Shown one piece after another: positions 57,499-64,000 of a DNA stretch of 64,000 nt. A program made the position numbers and the translations under genes. The notes below the pieces were generated by a model. It was not told the origin of the DNA and did not search any database. It saw nothing but the letters and a program-made list of their open reading frames with translations. Origin of the DNA: Eubacteriaceae bacterium (lineage in GTDB: Bacteria > Bacillota > Clostridia > Lachnospirales > Lachnospiraceae); the NCBI GenBank assembly GCA_910574895.1, contig CAJTDQ010000005.1, positions 124,001-188,000 of the forward strand, read 5' to 3'. The stretch's first letter is position 1. Each line of letters begins with the position of its first letter.

Positions 57499-57867
57499 TT
57501 ATTGATAAATAGCACATTTCCTAGTGGTTATTTTTCCTTGTCTGCCATTTGGGTATGAAAATTTTTCTGTTACCAGCACATCCAACATTCCTTCTTTAAA
57601 ATCAACTCCCATCACCTCTATTTGCAAATCACCATTACTAGAAATACTAGTACACATGTTTTGCACAAAATATGCCACCATTTCTTTGTCCGAAGTAATA
57701 TTGTTCTGATTATAAATCTGACTTTCTTTTACTGTCTGTTTCACTGCTGCCGATACTACTCGATCCAACTCATCTTTCCTGTCTGTCCTGCTTTCCACTG
57801 ACAGCATAGTCAGAGACACCAACAGAATTAATACTGCAATCCCAATCATTATCATTACCTGTTTCAT
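57499..57867 (-). CDS. Pilin/pseudopilin-like protein of the Tad-like locus
   Basis: 122 aa. One hydrophobic helix at 3-22 (VMIMIGIAVLILLVSLTML) directly at the N-terminus leads to an amphipathic helix and a beta-rich end containing two Cys (CTSISSNG near 71, RKCAIYQ at the end). This is the layout of Tad-locus pseudopilins (TadE/F-like), though no glycine-type prepilin site is obvious. Its ATG overlaps the TGA of the beta-helix gene (ATGA), so translation is coupled. It is the last gene of the operon in the minus direction. Function is inferred from context only. Confidence 0.55.
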   Translation of the reverse strand: MKQVMIMIGIAVLILLVSLTMLSVESRTDRKDELDRVVSAAVKQTVKESQIYNQNNITSDKEMVAYFVQNMCTSISSNGDLQIEVMGVDFKEGMLDVLVTEKFSYPNGRQGKITTRKCAIYQ

Positions 57868-60386
57868 AATCCCAACTTTCCAACTACACTTTTGTTCATT
57901 TCATGATTAATGTTGTAGTTATTGCCTTTTATATTATTTTTTATTTCCATAATATTTTCCTTTGAAATATTAATTTTATAAACACTATTATCTTTTTTGC
58001 GTAAACTTGCCAATAATTTGCTTTTCAATCTTTTATTCCATTTTGAAGAAATGTCTAAAGTACGAAAAAAATCATAGGAAATAAACCTTATCTGCCCGTT
58101 GGATAAATCTCTATTTAAAACATATACCTCCATTTTAGCACTGGATTTTACACCGCTTACATAATCTGTTGCCTCCACTGTTAGTATATATTCATTCATC
58201 AAATCTGTACTTATATAATTTTCTGTAGTAATATCATCGCCTTTTGCAATATTAATATTGTCAATTTTGTCTATTCTCGTCACCCGCAATTTATAAGACT
58301 TCCCTGTATGTAAATCATCATCTGTAGTTACTTTTTTTAGTAATTCCTTTGAATTTAAAATAATTCTCTGATTTATAGCATAATACCGGTTTACTGTATT
58401 TATATATATTTCCTTTATGGCATTCCTTTTCCATATAGCATACAATGTTATATTTCCATTTCCTCTATAGATTTCTCCTGGATAGTATACTGTTCCATTT
58501 CCCTGACTTTTTGTATTCCAATGTTTATCGTCCTCTAAAATGTAACCTTCTCTTGTTACACGGTTTTGACTTAAATTTATATTCTCATTCCAATACTTAA
58601 TCTGGTCTGCTGGCGTGTTTATTACGGCATCTACTGTATTTTTTTCATAATGTATCTTATATTTTTCACTAATAATAATCCAATTTTTTTCATATCCATT
58701 CACATTATTGCTAGGACGGAGCAATTGCGACTGCGACATACTGATACATTGATATCTCTCACTATTTTTCCCATTCTCATAATATAATTCTCCATGACCA
58801 TTGCCGCCATTATAATTCGCTCTCACTAATCTTGTTCCATTTTCATTAATCTGAGATTTAATTTTAGCAATCAAACCTGCTGTCCTATATAGCTTTCCTA
58901 TTACATCAATATATGTTCCTCTGGTAAGGTAAACTTCATTATTTTTTTCTACATAAGCACTCTCTTTCAGTTTAAAACTTCCCGCAACATAAACACCATG
59001 ACCATTTTGACCACTTTGATTTCCTGTAACCATCCCACTATTTATCTGTAAAGTTCCATTATTAATGTAAATTCCTCCACCATTCATCTTACTATAATTT
59101 TTGCAAATAGAACTATTAATAACAATAACTGACCCATCTACTTGTAGTCCACCGCTGTTTTTGTCTGTTTTGTTTCCCTGTATTTCACAATCTGTTATGT
59201 ATACCTCATTCGAGGAAATCCCAACTGCACTTGCGGGAATACGCATTCCTCCAATACCTTCTTTTCCACTATTATTTTCAATATGCATGTTCTTTATATA
59301 TATTTTTGAAGCACTGCTGGTACTTGCCGGACCACAGGAAAGTCCGCCTGTATTTTTCCCTGCTATATTGTTTGAAATGCAACCACCATAAAAATGACTT
59401 GTCCCTCCACTATTATTTCCAGAGCCACCATTACAGCGAATACCGCCGCCAATAGTTTCTGCATAATTGTTTATAATTTGAGGTCCTGTTCCATCCTCTT
59501 TTCCAATAACAATTGCAGCACCACCTCCAGAAAAAACTCCACCTCCAGTTAGTCCGGCCTTATTATCTACAATGTTACCTGAAACAATTTGACACTTTGA
59601 TTTTCCTGATACAAAGATGCCCCCTCCCTCTTCTTTTGAAACACAGTCTCGAATTGTCCCACCATTCATTTCAATATTACAACCTTCTATTCCAAAAATA
59701 CCTCCACCTTCTGTAGCTGAAGAACAATTATGAATATCTGCGGACTTTTGAATATAAAGTTTTCCTTTCTTTATTCCAATAGCACCTCCATCTGTGCCGT
59801 CACAATGACTAATTTCTCCATTTACAGTCAGACTTCCTACGCTAAAAACAGCAGTTCCCCCCTTTTCACTCTTATTATTTTTAACATTCGTAAGTACTGC
59901 TCTTTTATCAATAGTTACATGAGCTTTCTCACCAACATATAAAAAACCCGAGCTTTTCTTTTTTCCTGAGAAACTTGATTTATTACCATTTAATATTAGT
60001 TGATTACTACTTCCCTCGTATCCAAAAACTACATGTGCATTACCATTGACAATCATGCAGTATTTAGGATTTCCTTGGTTATTTACCAGATCACTCATAT
60101 CTCCTGAACGCATTAACGTTCGTCCTGCTCCTTTTGCATATAATCTAAATTTCCCACTATTAATCGTAATTGTTTTTCTAATAAAAATTTTACTATTTAC
60201 TTCTATGTACTTCCATTTGCTTTCATTTTTTGTAGTTAATATCTCACGAAGCTCTGTTTCTTTTGTTATTACGTAGGGCTTATCTTTCGTTCCTTTTCCT
60301 GTATATCCCTGCACATAACTTTTGTTTGCAAAACATATAATGCATAAAAATACCAAAATGAATAAACACTTTATTTTACCTTGCAT
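57864..60386 (-). CDS. Large secreted beta-helix protein in the Tad-like locus
   Basis: 840 aa. A signal peptide covers about 1-27. Residues about 60-470 are imperfect 20-25-residue repeats with GGGIF, GGGIYINNG and GGAIGI turns and N-[ST]-[AG] asparagine ladders, as in right-handed parallel beta-helices and chlamydial polymorphic membrane proteins. About 590-640 is an InlB B-repeat-like unit (ending GNITLYAIWK). About 650-745 looks Ig/cadherin-like (ILTVEATDYVSG). The last 90 residues are basic with no LPxTG or membrane anchor. Context suggests an adhesin or tip component displayed by the pilus; this is inference. The start overlaps the upstream gene by 11 bp. Confidence 0.7.
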   Translation of the reverse strand: MQGKIKCLFILVFLCIICFANKSYVQGYTGKGTKDKPYVITKETELREILTTKNESKWKYIEVNSKIFIRKTITINSGKFRLYAKGAGRTLMRSGDMSDLVNNQGNPKYCMIVNGNAHVVFGYEGSSNQLILNGNKSSFSGKKKSSGFLYVGEKAHVTIDKRAVLTNVKNNKSEKGGTAVFSVGSLTVNGEISHCDGTDGGAIGIKKGKLYIQKSADIHNCSSATEGGGIFGIEGCNIEMNGGTIRDCVSKEEGGGIFVSGKSKCQIVSGNIVDNKAGLTGGGVFSGGGAAIVIGKEDGTGPQIINNYAETIGGGIRCNGGSGNNSGGTSHFYGGCISNNIAGKNTGGLSCGPASTSSASKIYIKNMHIENNSGKEGIGGMRIPASAVGISSNEVYITDCEIQGNKTDKNSGGLQVDGSVIVINSSICKNYSKMNGGGIYINNGTLQINSGMVTGNQSGQNGHGVYVAGSFKLKESAYVEKNNEVYLTRGTYIDVIGKLYRTAGLIAKIKSQINENGTRLVRANYNGGNGHGELYYENGKNSERYQCISMSQSQLLRPSNNVNGYEKNWIIISEKYKIHYEKNTVDAVINTPADQIKYWNENINLSQNRVTREGYILEDDKHWNTKSQGNGTVYYPGEIYRGNGNITLYAIWKRNAIKEIYINTVNRYYAINQRIILNSKELLKKVTTDDDLHTGKSYKLRVTRIDKIDNINIAKGDDITTENYISTDLMNEYILTVEATDYVSGVKSSAKMEVYVLNRDLSNGQIRFISYDFFRTLDISSKWNKRLKSKLLASLRKKDNSVYKINISKENIMEIKNNIKGNNYNINHEMNKSVVGKLGL

Positions 60387-60720
60387 ATCCTTCTATCACC
60401 CCCTGTTTATTAAACTTATCTCCAAATAATTCAAACACCGGAATCATTACACAATATTCCAGTTTTACAAATTTGCTGGGTTGTTCATTATATATCGTCA
60501 AATCCTCTACTTCTAGATCATATCCTTTTTCTTTTGCTTCCTCGACACATTGATTAATTACCTCATTATTACAATTGCTATCTTCAATCCGGTTAACTAC
60601 CACATTATAAAAGTCTCTTGCATCACACACCTGATTATTACTGCTGATAATTGATGCAAACAGAATACAACCTATTGTAATCGCAATAATCATTGAAAAC
60701 ATCTCTATTGCCAACTTCAT
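60376..60720 (-). CDS. TadE-like pseudopilin
   Basis: 114 aa. The N-terminal hydrophobic helix at 3-25 (LAIEMFSMIIAITIGCILFA) has a Glu at position 6, reminiscent of the Glu+5 of pilins. About 85 soluble residues follow with two or three Cys and a C-terminal strand pair (LEYCVMIPVFELFGDKF). This matches minor pilins of Tad loci in Lachnospiraceae in size and shape. GGAG precedes the ATG. It lies 4 bp after the 134-aa protein gene and overlaps the beta-helix gene. Confidence 0.6.
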   Translation of the reverse strand: MKLAIEMFSMIIAITIGCILFASIISSNNQVCDARDFYNVVVNRIEDSNCNNEVINQCVEEAKEKGYDLEVEDLTIYNEQPSKFVKLEYCVMIPVFELFGDKFNKQGVIEGYAR

Positions 60721-60724
60721 ACTT

Positions 60725-61129
60725 TTACTCCACTATTACATTTATATACTTTGTACTCGCTAATTGATTTTCTGACATTACAACACATCTCAATTGATAA
60801 ATTCCTCTCCTGAAGGTATCAATTTTTCCATATATTCTCACATCATCCGAAATATCTCTTCCAAGATAATCTTTTGCCTTAATAAAATCTCTACAGTTAA
60901 AATTTTCTGTTTGATACTCAGCATATATAATTTCATCCACCTCAATTATTGGATATTTATCTTTATTCTGCTTTCGAAAACTCTCACTGTTTTTGCTTAC
61001 CATTCTTTTATAATCCGGTGTCATATCTTTCCACTTATTCTCACAAATAAAACTTATTAACATAACTACTGTCAAACCAATAACACCATAAATCAATACC
61101 TCACCATGCTCTCCTAAAAAACTGTCCAT
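60725..61129 (-). CDS. Membrane-anchored Ig-like (DUF5011-like) protein
   Basis: 134 aa. Residues 1-30 are MDSFLGEHGEVLIYGVIG plus a hydrophobic helix; this start closely resembles the two tiny proteins encoded just upstream. A basic linker (40-57) leads to a beta-sandwich-like domain: VDEIIYAEYQTENFNCRDF, DYLGRDISDDVRIYGKIDT, GIYQLRCVVMSE, YINVIVE. The D-x-x-G-x-D-I-[ST] and G-x-Y-x-[LV] pattern is that of DUF5011/bacterial Ig-like domains. It may be a modular pilin with an Ig head. The SD TGGAG overlaps the end of the preceding gene. Confidence 0.6.
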   Translation of the reverse strand: MDSFLGEHGEVLIYGVIGLTVVMLISFICENKWKDMTPDYKRMVSKNSESFRKQNKDKYPIIEVDEIIYAEYQTENFNCRDFIKAKDYLGRDISDDVRIYGKIDTFRRGIYQLRCVVMSENQLASTKYINVIVE

Positions 61130-61131
61130 TT

Positions 61132-61275
61132 CTACTCCATTCCTGAAATAGAAGCTATCGTATAAGCTTCCATCTTTCCTACTACTGCCACTACTATAAA
61201 AATAATGGCTAACAAAACAACTGATATAATTGCACTCATTAATACTCCACCATGCTCTGATATAAACTCCTCCAT
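61132..61275 (-). CDS. 47-aa single-helix pilin-like protein
   Basis: MEEFISEHGGVLMSAI followed by a strongly hydrophobic stretch to about residue 33, then a short polar tail (KMEAYTIASISGME). SD AAGGAGG lies 6 bases before ATG 61275, and the stop is 2 bp before the next ATG. Small hydrophobic proteins at this position of Tad operons are usually the major Flp pilin, but the usual cleavable basic leader and G/xxxxEY site are missing here. The SEHG motif is shared with the next gene. Confidence 0.65.
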   Translation of the reverse strand: MEEFISEHGGVLMSAIISVVLLAIIFIVVAVVGKMEAYTIASISGME

Positions 61276-61348
61276 TTCTACCTCCTTATATCTTTTTTAA
61301 TATTCACTTCCCAATTTACATATTTTCTCATGTCAAAAGCATGTACTA

Positions 61349-61453
61349 TTATCTGGTAACCACATTCAATAATTCATAAAATCCCCCTATTAAAATAAGA
61401 AATATTATTCCATAGATAATGCACTGCCCCAATTCTGATAATAAAAATTTCAT
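61349..61453 (-). CDS. 34-aa single-helix membrane protein
   Basis: MKFLLSELGQCIIYGIIF and a hydrophobic stretch to about residue 26, ending LLNVVTR. SD GGAGGG lies 5 bases before ATG 61453, one base after the TadC-like gene's stop. Its start (F-L-L-S-E-L-G-x-x-I-I-Y-G) aligns with the 47-aa and 134-aa neighbours (E-H-G). Pilin-like or assembly-factor roles are both possible. Confidence 0.6.
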   Translation of the reverse strand: MKFLLSELGQCIIYGIIFLILIGGFYELLNVVTR

Positions 61454-61454
61454 T

Positions 61455-62771
61455 TTACCCTCCATTAATTACGTTGGAAACAGATGAGGTAAATACAACA
61501 ATCATCAATATCATATCCACCATTATTTTAGCTACCCCCAGTACCATAGGAATCGCTGAAAACATTGTTGAAGCACCAATCTTATCACTATTTTTCATCT
61601 CCTCTGCCTGACTTATCATTTTGTTATTTCTATCAATAATAGCATTTATCTGCTTATCCGACTGCCATTTTCCTAACTCGTTGATAGAATAAAACATTTT
61701 TACTGAAGATTTTATTTCGTCTAAATCAAATTCTTTTAAAAAATTATCGTAAGGTTCTATACCTATCGGAAACTTTTCAAAATCCACTAGCAACTTTCTC
61801 ACCGGTCTTTTTAGCACAAATGGCAGCTTCCCATAAGATTCTTCTATTGCGGACTGTACTGTCTCGTTTTGAAGATTAATTGCTACATCACGAATCCAGT
61901 CTGGAAACACCTTTTTTATTTCTTTTTCCAATGTACGCTTTGCTTTTTTATATGACATTTTCTCCAACACAGATAATGAACTATAATTGTTATATGCCTT
62001 TTCTGTCAGAACATAATATTTTACAATCATATTATTTGGTAAGGTCTGTCTGTCCAAAATCCAGTCAATATTCATCTTTTTATGAACAAACAAATATGAT
62101 GCTAACATCAGTATTATCATTGTCGTAGTGCAGATCTGATAAATGAAATGTTCAGTATATCTATATTCTCCGGGAATAAGATATGCCATAAAACCACAAG
62201 TAACCAATGTTGAAATAATAGAAATTAATACATTTCTTTTTATTCTGTCAACACTTTTTATATATAATGAAACTCTATCTCCCCACTCTTTGATATCTTC
62301 TAAAAGAATATCTATATAATTCTCATAATCCCCTCCATGCTTTTCGATTTTAATAATAAACTCATGTAACGACCATAATCTTTTACAATCATATTCGCTT
62401 TTAAGAACCTCTAAAGATTCTTCATATATGTTCTCTGTCATTTTAGAATCAATATTTAAAATAACCTCTTCTATCATTTCTTTCATATGATTTGAACATA
62501 CCTTCTGTGCATCCGACAATGCCATTCGAATCTTAGGCTGTTTTTTAAAAGAATATATCATCTGTTCCATATACAAAACCACATCATGAAACTTATCAAG
62601 ATATTTCTTTCTAATCTTCTCTTCTTTTTCAAAAAATATTTGAAAGATAACTGCTCCAAGCACACAAATAAAAATACTGAATATATTTAATTTGTATATC
62701 AGGCATATTAACAATACTAACACCAATATCTTCACTGAATCTCTCAACACATTCAAAATTTTACTTTTCAC
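61455..62771 (-). CDS. TadB/TadC-like inner-membrane platform protein
   Basis: 438 aa. Helices lie at about 12-45, 180-200, 208-225 and 410-432, with large cytosolic helical regions between them (VVLYMEQMIYSFKKQPKIRMAL, HGGDYENYIDILLEDI). This four-helix, GspF-like plan is that of Tad platform proteins that couple the ATPase to pilin extraction. Sequence is diverged and no strict motif is seen. GTG 62771 is preferred over TTG 62789 because AGGGAG precedes it by 7 bases; that SD overlaps the stop of the ATPase gene. Confidence 0.7.
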   Translation of the reverse strand: MKSKILNVLRDSVKILVLVLLICLIYKLNIFSIFICVLGAVIFQIFFEKEEKIRKKYLDKFHDVVLYMEQMIYSFKKQPKIRMALSDAQKVCSNHMKEMIEEVILNIDSKMTENIYEESLEVLKSEYDCKRLWSLHEFIIKIEKHGGDYENYIDILLEDIKEWGDRVSLYIKSVDRIKRNVLISIISTLVTCGFMAYLIPGEYRYTEHFIYQICTTTMIILMLASYLFVHKKMNIDWILDRQTLPNNMIVKYYVLTEKAYNNYSSLSVLEKMSYKKAKRTLEKEIKKVFPDWIRDVAINLQNETVQSAIEESYGKLPFVLKRPVRKLLVDFEKFPIGIEPYDNFLKEFDLDEIKSSVKMFYSINELGKWQSDKQINAIIDRNNKMISQAEEMKNSDKIGASTMFSAIPMVLGVAKIMVDMILMIVVFTSSVSNVINGG

Positions 62772-62775
62772 TAAT

Positions 62776-63786
62776 TCACTCCCTGACAAATGGATTTTCT
62801 ATTCCTGCCATCTTAAATTTTCTCATGATATCTTCCGGAAGATTTTCTGTTAAAATTTTTCCATCCTCATATATCATAACCTTTTCATTCTTCTCTTCAT
62901 TTCTTGACAGACACATTACCTGAACAATCTTCCGTTTTATCTTTTCTCCTTGTTTTACAACTGACTGTAACTGTACACCAATATCAACAAAAGAATATAC
63001 ATCATTTTCATTAATGTTCTGTCCCATATTTCGCAAACGATCAGGGATTTTGCCGGCATCATCCAGATGAATGGTTGTAAGGCAATGTACTCCTGCTGAA
63101 ATATTTTCCAAAAGATACTTTACCTCCTCACCTCTGGCTTCTGCCAGCAACACCCATGTAGGCAACTGTCTCTTACTGGCTTTTAAGGCTTCCGCATATC
63201 CAAAATTTTCACTAACTTTAATTTCTACGCAGTCTTTACCTGGATTTATTGCAGAATATCTTAATTCCAAATTATCTTCTATCGTATAAACTCTTTCATA
63301 TGCCGGAATGTAATTTGTTAAATATTTAATATATTCTGTTTTTCCTACTCCCGGTAATCCACCTACAATCACGGTGCAGTGTGCTCGTATGGCATTTTGC
63401 ATGAAAGCATCAATTTCCTCCGTACAATATTCATCACGAATCAATCTGTCCTTCCTAATTCTTCGAACTGCCGGAGTCTTTCGAATGCTAATACTAATTC
63501 CGGTATTTGTAACAGAATCATGTAGTATGGATATCCTTAAACTATCTGTTTCCGCCTCTAGAAGAGGATAATTCTGATTAAACTGTATATTCATCAAATT
63601 ACTAATACGTGTATAAAACTGCTGGATAAAAACATCTTTCAAAACAAAACCTTCTACTTTATACCTGCCTTTTTCCAGATCATTTATCCAAAGTCCCCCA
63701 CTCCAATTAATATCTGTTATATTTTCATCTAATATATATGTTAATAAGTCACCAAAAGCTCTGTCCGGCAAAGCCAACTTCCTCAT
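62776..63786 (-). CDS. CpaF/TadA-family secretion ATPase
   Basis: 336 aa. Walker A GLPGVGKT lies at about 143-150; an Asp box DNLELRY follows, then Walker B WVLLAEARGEE (Glu near 216) and the His box GVHCLTTIHLDD. The N-terminal domain is short compared with typical CpaF (about 450 aa). Such hexameric ATPases power assembly of Flp pili. ATG 63786 follows GGGAGAG; a longer frame would add 32 residues of unlikely sequence. It precedes and overlaps the platform protein's SD, and a pilin-like gene lies upstream. Confidence 0.88.
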   Translation of the reverse strand: MRKLALPDRAFGDLLTYILDENITDINWSGGLWINDLEKGRYKVEGFVLKDVFIQQFYTRISNLMNIQFNQNYPLLEAETDSLRISILHDSVTNTGISISIRKTPAVRRIRKDRLIRDEYCTEEIDAFMQNAIRAHCTVIVGGLPGVGKTEYIKYLTNYIPAYERVYTIEDNLELRYSAINPGKDCVEIKVSENFGYAEALKASKRQLPTWVLLAEARGEEVKYLLENISAGVHCLTTIHLDDAGKIPDRLRNMGQNINENDVYSFVDIGVQLQSVVKQGEKIKRKIVQVMCLSRNEEKNEKVMIYEDGKILTENLPEDIMRKFKMAGIENPFVRE

Positions 63787-63853
63787 GTGCTCTCTCCCTG
63801 TCGTTTCAATAAAATAATTGTTATGTTTAACACAAATACAAAACTGTTTATTC

Positions 63854-64000
63854 CTATTTTCCTGCCGGAATCTTACCGGCAATAGAATCGAATGTCACAG
63901 ACGAGGAATAACTGTCCACTACATCCTTAACCGCATTACTAATAATGGGTCCAATAACATAAGCAACACCTACTAACAGCAAAATACATACTGCAATAAA
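63854..64000 (-). CDS. C-terminal part of a pilin-like membrane protein
   Basis: The last 48 codons of a gene that enters from the right edge. They encode a hydrophobic helix (FIAVCILLLVGVAYVIGPII) and a short polar tail ending in KIPAGK, then TAG. This resembles the single-helix proteins of the locus or the end of a larger membrane component. The start is outside the window. Confidence 0.55.
   Translation of the reverse strand, partial: FIAVCILLLVGVAYVIGPIISNAVKDVVDSYSSSVTFDSIAGKIPAGK

Follow-up and report, generated by a model that had tools for sequence, protein, structure and literature searches.

A stretch of 64,000 nucleotides from a Eubacteriaceae bacterium (assembly GCA_910574895.1, contig CAJTDQ010000005.1, here contig C5, positions 124001-188000; hereafter the window) ends on its right side in a row of minus-strand genes that encode, in order, a small Flp-like protein (S0), an ATPase, a membrane platform, two very small proteins (S1 and S2), a membrane-anchored protein (M), a pseudopilin-like protein (TE1), a secreted protein of 840 amino acids (aa) and a second pseudopilin-like protein (TE2); the labels S0, S1, S2, M, TE1 and TE2 are names coined in the present analysis (Table 1). 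The gene set is a real, conserved member of the type 4 filament superfamily and is not a Tad locus, and the literature searched yielded no description of it, with most subscription papers and all preprints outside the coverage. A first-pass annotation of the window had read the genes from the ATPase to the pseudopilins as one operon for a divergent Tad-type pilus with tiny pilins, and the proteins that it named are indeed present on this strand and at this place. The spacing it described is as tight as claimed at most of the junctions among the genes it listed, which overlap or are separated by 4 bases or fewer, but 73 bases lie between the 34- and 47-aa genes. S0 reaches 36 bases past the window edge and lies 67 bases upstream of the ATPase; 17 close relatives have TTG or ATG aligned with its TTG start codon.

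Table 1. Genes and protein features of the operon, with positions in the window.
Feature	Position	Strand	Support
S0, 60-aa Flp-like protein, first operon gene	63854..64036 (window holds 63854..64000; L007:7855-8037)	-	
ATPase, 336 aa from its ATG, CpaF/VirB11-type secretion ATPase	62776..63786	-	PF00437, E 3.2e-18
Platform, 444 aa, membrane protein, two T2SSF-like halves in a single polypeptide	61455..62789	-	
S1, 34-aa protein, single membrane span, S-E-L-G	61349..61453	-	
S2, 47-aa protein, single membrane span, E-H-G	61132..61275	-	
M, 134 aa, E-H-G membrane anchor and outer part, weak Ig-like match	60725..61129	-	
TE1, 114 aa, pseudopilin-like	60376..60720	-	AlphaFold2 model; homologues in other loci
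840-aa secreted protein: N-terminal signal-like segment, repeats (probable beta-helix, by eye), InlB-like repeat, C-terminal module	57864..60386	-	
Flg_new (List_Bact_rpt) repeat, residues 576-650 of the 840-aa protein	58437..58661	-	sub-threshold
RFIS...SxW module, C-terminal in the 840-aa protein	57888..58175	-	
TE2, 122 aa, pseudopilin-like, last operon gene	57499..57867	-	homologues in 70/91 loci

A platform search over 250 genomes of the family Lachnospiraceae found a match in 30, and named genomes, scanned with an ATPase alignment, gave 486 stretches that encode some kind of ATPase relative, of which the 80 best were retained; removal of 8 duplicates from 103 loci left 95 non-redundant loci for analysis, with system loci 5.9-19 kb long. 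Related operons with a complete or partial gene set are present in these 95 loci, mostly from Lachnospiraceae with a few labelled otherwise, and named carriers include genomes of Roseburia, Agathobacter, Lactonifactor, Anaerostipes and Faecalicatena, with the cultured Lactonifactor longoviformis DSM 17459 (L116) and Agathobacter ruminis (L166) among them. A platform-profile search of 391 genomes of the class gave four with a match, two of them outside the family. The recurrent set comprises a small Flp-like protein, the ATPase, the platform with its two halves, the proteins of around 34 and 47 aa, the anchored protein, two pseudopilin-like proteins and, usually, a large secreted protein of its own, and comparison with other Lachnospiraceae, in which gene order was read directly in 20 relatives and the closest named relatives, shows that the order is conserved.

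The recurrence of the set bears out the reading as one operon, as does the platform start no more than 150 bases from the ATPase end in 87 of the 92 loci with both genes. The S0, S1 and TE1 families are additionally present in 64 of these 92 loci, and all six small and minor families (S0, S1, S2, M, TE1 and TE2) are found in 27 of them by automatic calling, which misses some small genes, including the window's own S1 and S2. Profile searches, counted over the 91 loci that yielded candidate frames, place TE1 in 89, TE2 in 70 and M in 68. The lengths of the small genes vary by only a few residues among 18 close relatives, and the median ratio of nonsynonymous to synonymous substitution rates (dN/dS), taken over unsaturated pairs only, is 0.043 for S0 (35 of 153 pairs), 0.325 for S1 (90 pairs), 0.452 for S2 (111 pairs) and 0.040 for the ATPase (26 pairs); the small genes are evolving as protein-coding sequences.

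Two copies of the machine are present in Clostridium sp. C105KSO13, on two contigs (L143 and L146), and platform matches lie on two contigs each in genomes G224 and G103. Genomes from two families of the class have similar operons (L056 and L178) with ATPases that are close in the tree, which suggests horizontal transfer; blastn of one operon against the other gives a single 245-base match. L153, from a metagenome-assembled genome labelled Muribaculaceae, encodes small proteins near-identical to those of L152 (Blautia sp.) and is probably a mislabelled or mixed bin. The genes that flank the operon of the window on both sides are oppositely oriented and ordinary (a biotin ligase and an endonuclease III-like gene), and a scan for promoters and terminators gave results at chance level only. 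Past the right window edge, L007:9829-13811 holds a ParB-like and PAPS-reductase/DUF3440 gene pair and an Mrr-type restriction endonuclease, and looks like a mobile or defence region.

ATPase, platform and the Tad pilus

A few bacterial kinds of type 4 filament are usually distinguished, and a prepilin peptidase and a glutamate at position 5 of the pilin (Glu5) are regarded as requirements. The operon encodes both a PilB/CpaF/VirB11-type secretion ATPase and a T2SSF-type integral membrane platform, and the earlier view stands: a machine of the type 4 filament kind, its pilin-like proteins unusually small, with a large secreted protein encoded in the same operon. The closest solved structures to the ATPase are 2oap ('Type II secretion system protein', 1.5e-32) and CpaF (2e-29), with VirB11 and FlaI also among its relatives in the PDB; homology to CpaF is assigned a probability of 99.9, and identity across 20 relatives is 38-63%. 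Scans of the platform alignment against Pfam and NCBIfam give T2SSF and otherwise stray single-member matches only.

On contig C4 the same genome has a canonical Tad locus (L008:2066-11137) that includes a normal Flp pilin, and the genes of this locus, named partly by eye, encode a TadZ-like protein, CpaF, TadB, TadC, a 56-aa Flp (G/MGVIE, the slash separating positions -1 and +1), TadE-like proteins, an A24-family prepilin peptidase and an FHA-like protein. A degenerate or merely divergent extra copy of such a locus would account for an ATPase and a platform N half that resemble CpaF and TadB, and for the resemblance of S0 to Flp described below. Against it, 28 system ATPases form one group in the ATPase tree (support 100/98), from which Tad and VirB11 split off at 100/99 (13 Tad/CpaF sequences alone, 94/76), so that the system ATPases fall outside the Tad CpaF clade in a tree with long branches (flagged by the program), few outgroups, and a midpoint root, the true root being unknown. 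The label 'divergent Tad operon' therefore overstates the closeness to Tad.

The platform is likewise encoded by one gene in place of the two one-domain genes, tadB and tadC, of Tad loci, and canonical TadB and TadC profiles give zero matches at 1e-10 in the 95 system loci. Its N half matches TadB and not TadC, and its C half does not separate the two; an archaeal-type unsplit platform, in which the N half would be TadC-like, is unsupported on this ground. An A24 profile built in the present analysis, and trained partly on the canonical Tad loci, matches in 21/21 of those loci and in 0/95 system loci, and a TadZ-like protein is found in 21/21 and in 1/95 (L159, a weak match at 2.9e-5, and not the locus of the window), respectively. 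With a single platform gene, no A24 gene in any locus and no Glu at +5 in S0, the locus is as unlike the textbook Tad arrangement as was first remarked. Decay of a Tad copy is also at odds with purifying selection and conserved gene order, and we consider an extra Tad copy, degenerate or divergent, to be improbable.

Small pilin-like proteins and their possible processing

S0, S1 and S2 follow a common plan, with a short polar N-terminus, the motif E-(Y/H/F/L)-G in most members, and then a single membrane span; the S1 motif of the window is replaced by E-E-Y-G in many relatives. We collected 84 S0 proteins, 79 S1 proteins from 78 loci and 65 S2 proteins from 59 loci, and the Gly-type anchor is residue 9 in 80/84, 72/79 and 62/65 of them, respectively. 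In 20 of 21 canonical loci of the same family, the Flp pilin combines Gly or Ala at -1 with Glu at +5, the G/xxxxE signature of Tad pilins. Counted from the anchor, Glu at +5 occurs in 0/84 S0, in 1/75 anchored S1 and in 8/65 S2 proteins (the last with Gly at -1), and the residue right after the anchor Gly of S0 is Pro (8) or Lys (27) in 35/84, many of the Lys cases being close relatives. S0 is detected in 81 of the 95 loci, in nine of which it lies downstream of the platform; it was not found nearby in 13, and one further locus (L112) is cut by a contig end. A tandem pair of identical 56-aa S0 genes occurs at L056:1861-2257.

In a ranking by the S0 profile, the five canonical Flp pilins that were tried (of 20 found) outrank all 69 real N-terminal membrane segments used for comparison, and also 167 antisense frames. 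Among 204 distinct small proteins, nine of the 16 Glu residues found at +2 to +16 after Gly9 stand at exactly +5, for which a binomial p of 2e-7 is too small because the nine cases include near relatives. This ranking and this clustering make it most likely that S0, S1 and S2 are relatives of Flp, with Gly9 as an old cleavage site. The idea of tiny pilins accordingly survives in the kinship of the small proteins to Flp; the main pilin candidate, however, is the 60-aa protein whose gene is cut by the window edge, and not the 34- or 47-aa protein.

The absence of a prepilin peptidase, also remarked upon in the first-pass annotation, holds for the locus but not for the genome. Just outside the window, where a normal Flp pilin and its peptidase might have been encoded, lies the remainder of S0, and in the 6.2 kb that remain between the window and the end of the contig there is no A24 match and, by eye, no Flp-like frame apart from S0. 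The source genome has two A24 genes away from the operon, the second of them a stand-alone gene of 151 aa on contig C1 (L009:8096-8551), beside which no pilus genes were recognised by eye. Elsewhere in the genome, A24 genes are present for 30/30 and 50/50 machine-bearing handles (with 48 of 80 named loci checked), which amount to 73 distinct genomes since seven of the 80 handles are repeats, as judged by identical A24 coordinates, and no machine-bearing genome without A24 was met among these 73. Processing in trans is consequently possible. With A24 in 247 of the 250 family genomes and a canonical CpaF match at 1e-40 in 243, co-occurrence with either is uninformative on processing, and we dropped any attempt to infer or exclude processing from features so nearly universal in the family.

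A different view is that the subunits are never cut, in which case the filament would be made of pilins 'born mature' and as short as 34 residues. Pointers in this direction are the lack of A24 in the loci, the lack of Glu at +5 in S0, and the Pro or Lys after the anchor Gly. It is conceivable, though doubtful, that such uncut subunits are used, and we are similarly hesitant about the corollary that a conserved N-terminal E-Y-G motif at a fixed distance from Met1 would replace both the peptidase cut and Glu5. The 47-aa protein of the pLS20-type operon discussed below is also without Gly at the anchor position, but its kinship to S0 is unsupported. Leaderless pilins were set aside as the leading explanation because nine small proteins with Glu precisely at +5, and the resemblance to Flp, fit cleavage after Gly9; if cut there, mature S1 would be a pilin of 25 residues. 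According to passages of the review PMC10191384, Glu5 is believed to form a pair with the N-terminus of the adjacent pilin. Both presumed requirements of type 4 filaments are put to the test by a compact, separate machine of gut Lachnospiraceae whose locus is without a peptidase gene and whose main subunit is without Glu5.

The large secreted protein and a proposed mechanism

The Ig-like match of M (PF16403, 0.005) is below the family cut-off. An AlphaFold2 model of TE1, with a predicted local distance difference test score (pLDDT) of 88.4, has a helix at residues 2-47, a second helix at 52-65 and three strands, and would give TE1 the outline of a pilin, with a 46-residue N-terminal helix and a small alpha/beta head; a fold search against the PDB returned no significant match, and in Pfam and NCBIfam there were stray single-member matches only, with no family matched consistently. 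The 840-aa protein is a probable beta-helix, judging from a repeat pattern read by eye and from the Listeria-Bacteroides repeat (List_Bact_rpt, E 7.8e-6), which at 26.4 bits is below the cut-off of 27; a PDB sequence search with this protein gave zero matches. A role as an adhesin is suggested by its repeats.

The large proteins vary in length and body between loci, but many have in common a C-terminal module with the pattern RFIS-x-x-Y-x-x-T-L-x-x-x-S-x-W, in which Arg, Ser and Trp are invariant in 29 aligned members, none of them with a Pfam match at 0.01. The module is found at E <1e-3 in 57 of the 95 loci by a profile built from 46 of 89 large proteins, all of machine loci, and those 46 match by construction. 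Among the 250 family genomes it is present in 23, namely in 22 of the 30 with the machine and in one of the 220 without a machine match (Fisher 6.7e-24), and that one genome is 74% complete; since machine loci supplied the profile, it may have overlooked distant carriers in other places. This co-occurrence makes it likely that the large protein is a cargo or passenger of the machine, which in this way points to a surface-protein partner through a module that lacks a Pfam match. In four loci (L111, L115, L118 and L123) a sortase-type anchor replaces the RFIS module, the large protein, encoded downstream of the platform, ending in a P-x-T-G-like motif, a membrane span and a basic tail.

Two kinds of machine could make use of such a partner. 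One would be a secretion pseudopilus, akin to a type II secretion system with one membrane, which would drive the large protein across the thick cell wall, recognise it by the RFIS module and form no surface filament. The very short subunits, the two pseudopilin-like proteins, and a single secreted partner with a conserved C-terminal tag would suit this explanation, as would the draft genomes G038 and G122, where the RFIS carrier and the machine are on different contigs, an observation that also counts in favour of the filament reading below. We nevertheless think it unlikely, as the large proteins resemble, by eye, surface proteins and not released enzymes, four of them have sortase-like ends, and the closest relative of S0 is Flp, a filament subunit. 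On balance we lean towards the other, a compact type 4 filament machine, separate from the cells' own Tad pilus, that holds an adhesin-like large protein at the surface.

Under this surface-filament reading, the ATPase would drive the single two-half platform protein, and the platform would push small Flp-related subunits out of the membrane, mainly S0 and in addition S1 and S2, with M, TE1 and TE2 as minor subunits at the tip or base. Processing of the subunits, if there is any, would occur after Gly9 and rely on an A24 peptidase whose gene lies at another place in the genome. The large protein would be exported through its own signal peptide, and we infer that the subunits assemble into a short filament which retains it at the surface through the RFIS module, where it would be displayed and bind as an adhesin; the hold at the surface is assigned to this module because in most loci the large protein has no LPXTG-like end.

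Comparison with known systems

Beyond the homology of the ATPase to CpaF, the TadB-like N half of the platform, and the kinship of S0 to Flp, the system resembles the Tad pilus (for example, that of L008) in the ends of its leaders, which are E-E-Y-G or E-H-G where those of canonical Flp pilins are E-E-D-G, D-E-S-G and similar. Unlike Tad pili, it adds the proteins of about 34 and 47 aa and the RFIS-tagged protein, along with the separate grouping of its ATPases, the joined platform, and the lack of A24 and of Glu at +5 in S0 that set it apart above.

MSHA pilins are ordinary. MSHA loci provide a precedent for type 4 filament loci that have no prepilin peptidase and may borrow one, although they are described as derived from the type IVa pilus (passages of Denise et al. 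2019, PMC6668835). The 'no Flp' tad-like loci in the sections covered of Imam et al. (2011, PMC3244431) are similar in being clostridial and in having no recognised prepilin signal; these loci were reported with tadV and tadZ homologues, both of which, apart from one weak TadZ-like match, the present system is without, and by this description they are set apart from it.

The nearest relatives found outside the Clostridia, and the closest among the plasmid matches examined, are on plasmids, namely a Lactococcus plasmid (L199) and a pLS20-type operon (L200). The latter, at L200:5389-9447 of NZ_CP070845, a B. subtilis natto plasmid that we take to be pLS20, in agreement with the p34 paper, is a related and uncharacterised gene set beside a thioester-domain protein. 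Its ATPase scores 219.7 bits with the system profile versus 130.1 with the Tad profile, and falls on the system's side of the tree, with long branches. The N half of the system platform has its best match in a 267-aa protein of the pLS20-type set and the C half in TadC-like proteins of L199 and L200, and the TE1 and TE2 profiles select pLS20-type proteins of 120 and 126 aa, modestly, with E about 1e-4 among 13 proteins. In contrast to the joined platform here, the pLS20-type set has two or more separate platform genes. It also has two identical 47-aa proteins without Gly9, which rank sixth, after the five Flp pilins, against the 167 antisense frames but are outscored in the S0 profile by 5 of the 69 real segments, so that their homology to S0 is unsupported; the thioester protein was considered as a carrier of the RFIS module, which was not found in it.

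Kinship to these plasmid genes raises the question of a DNA-transfer or uptake device related to pLS20 conjugation, and it is in a Lactococcus plasmid and a conjugation operon that the closest plasmid relatives among the matches examined reside. Such a role appears very improbable, as no relaxase, VirD4 or VirB4 family was found among the nine flanking proteins scanned, and as in pLS20 it is the adjacent adhesin that was shown to matter for mating in liquid, according to passages of the p34 paper (PMC8092201). The same passages describe this adhesin as being without a sortase signal, in which it is like most large proteins here; they state that host sortases are not needed for p34 and give its attachment to the cell as an open question, while the genes of the machine do not come up in these passages and the text of the paper contains neither 'Tad' nor 'CpaF' (PMC8092201). 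By analogy with the system of the window, we suggest that the machine adjoining p34 may hold p34 at the cell surface.

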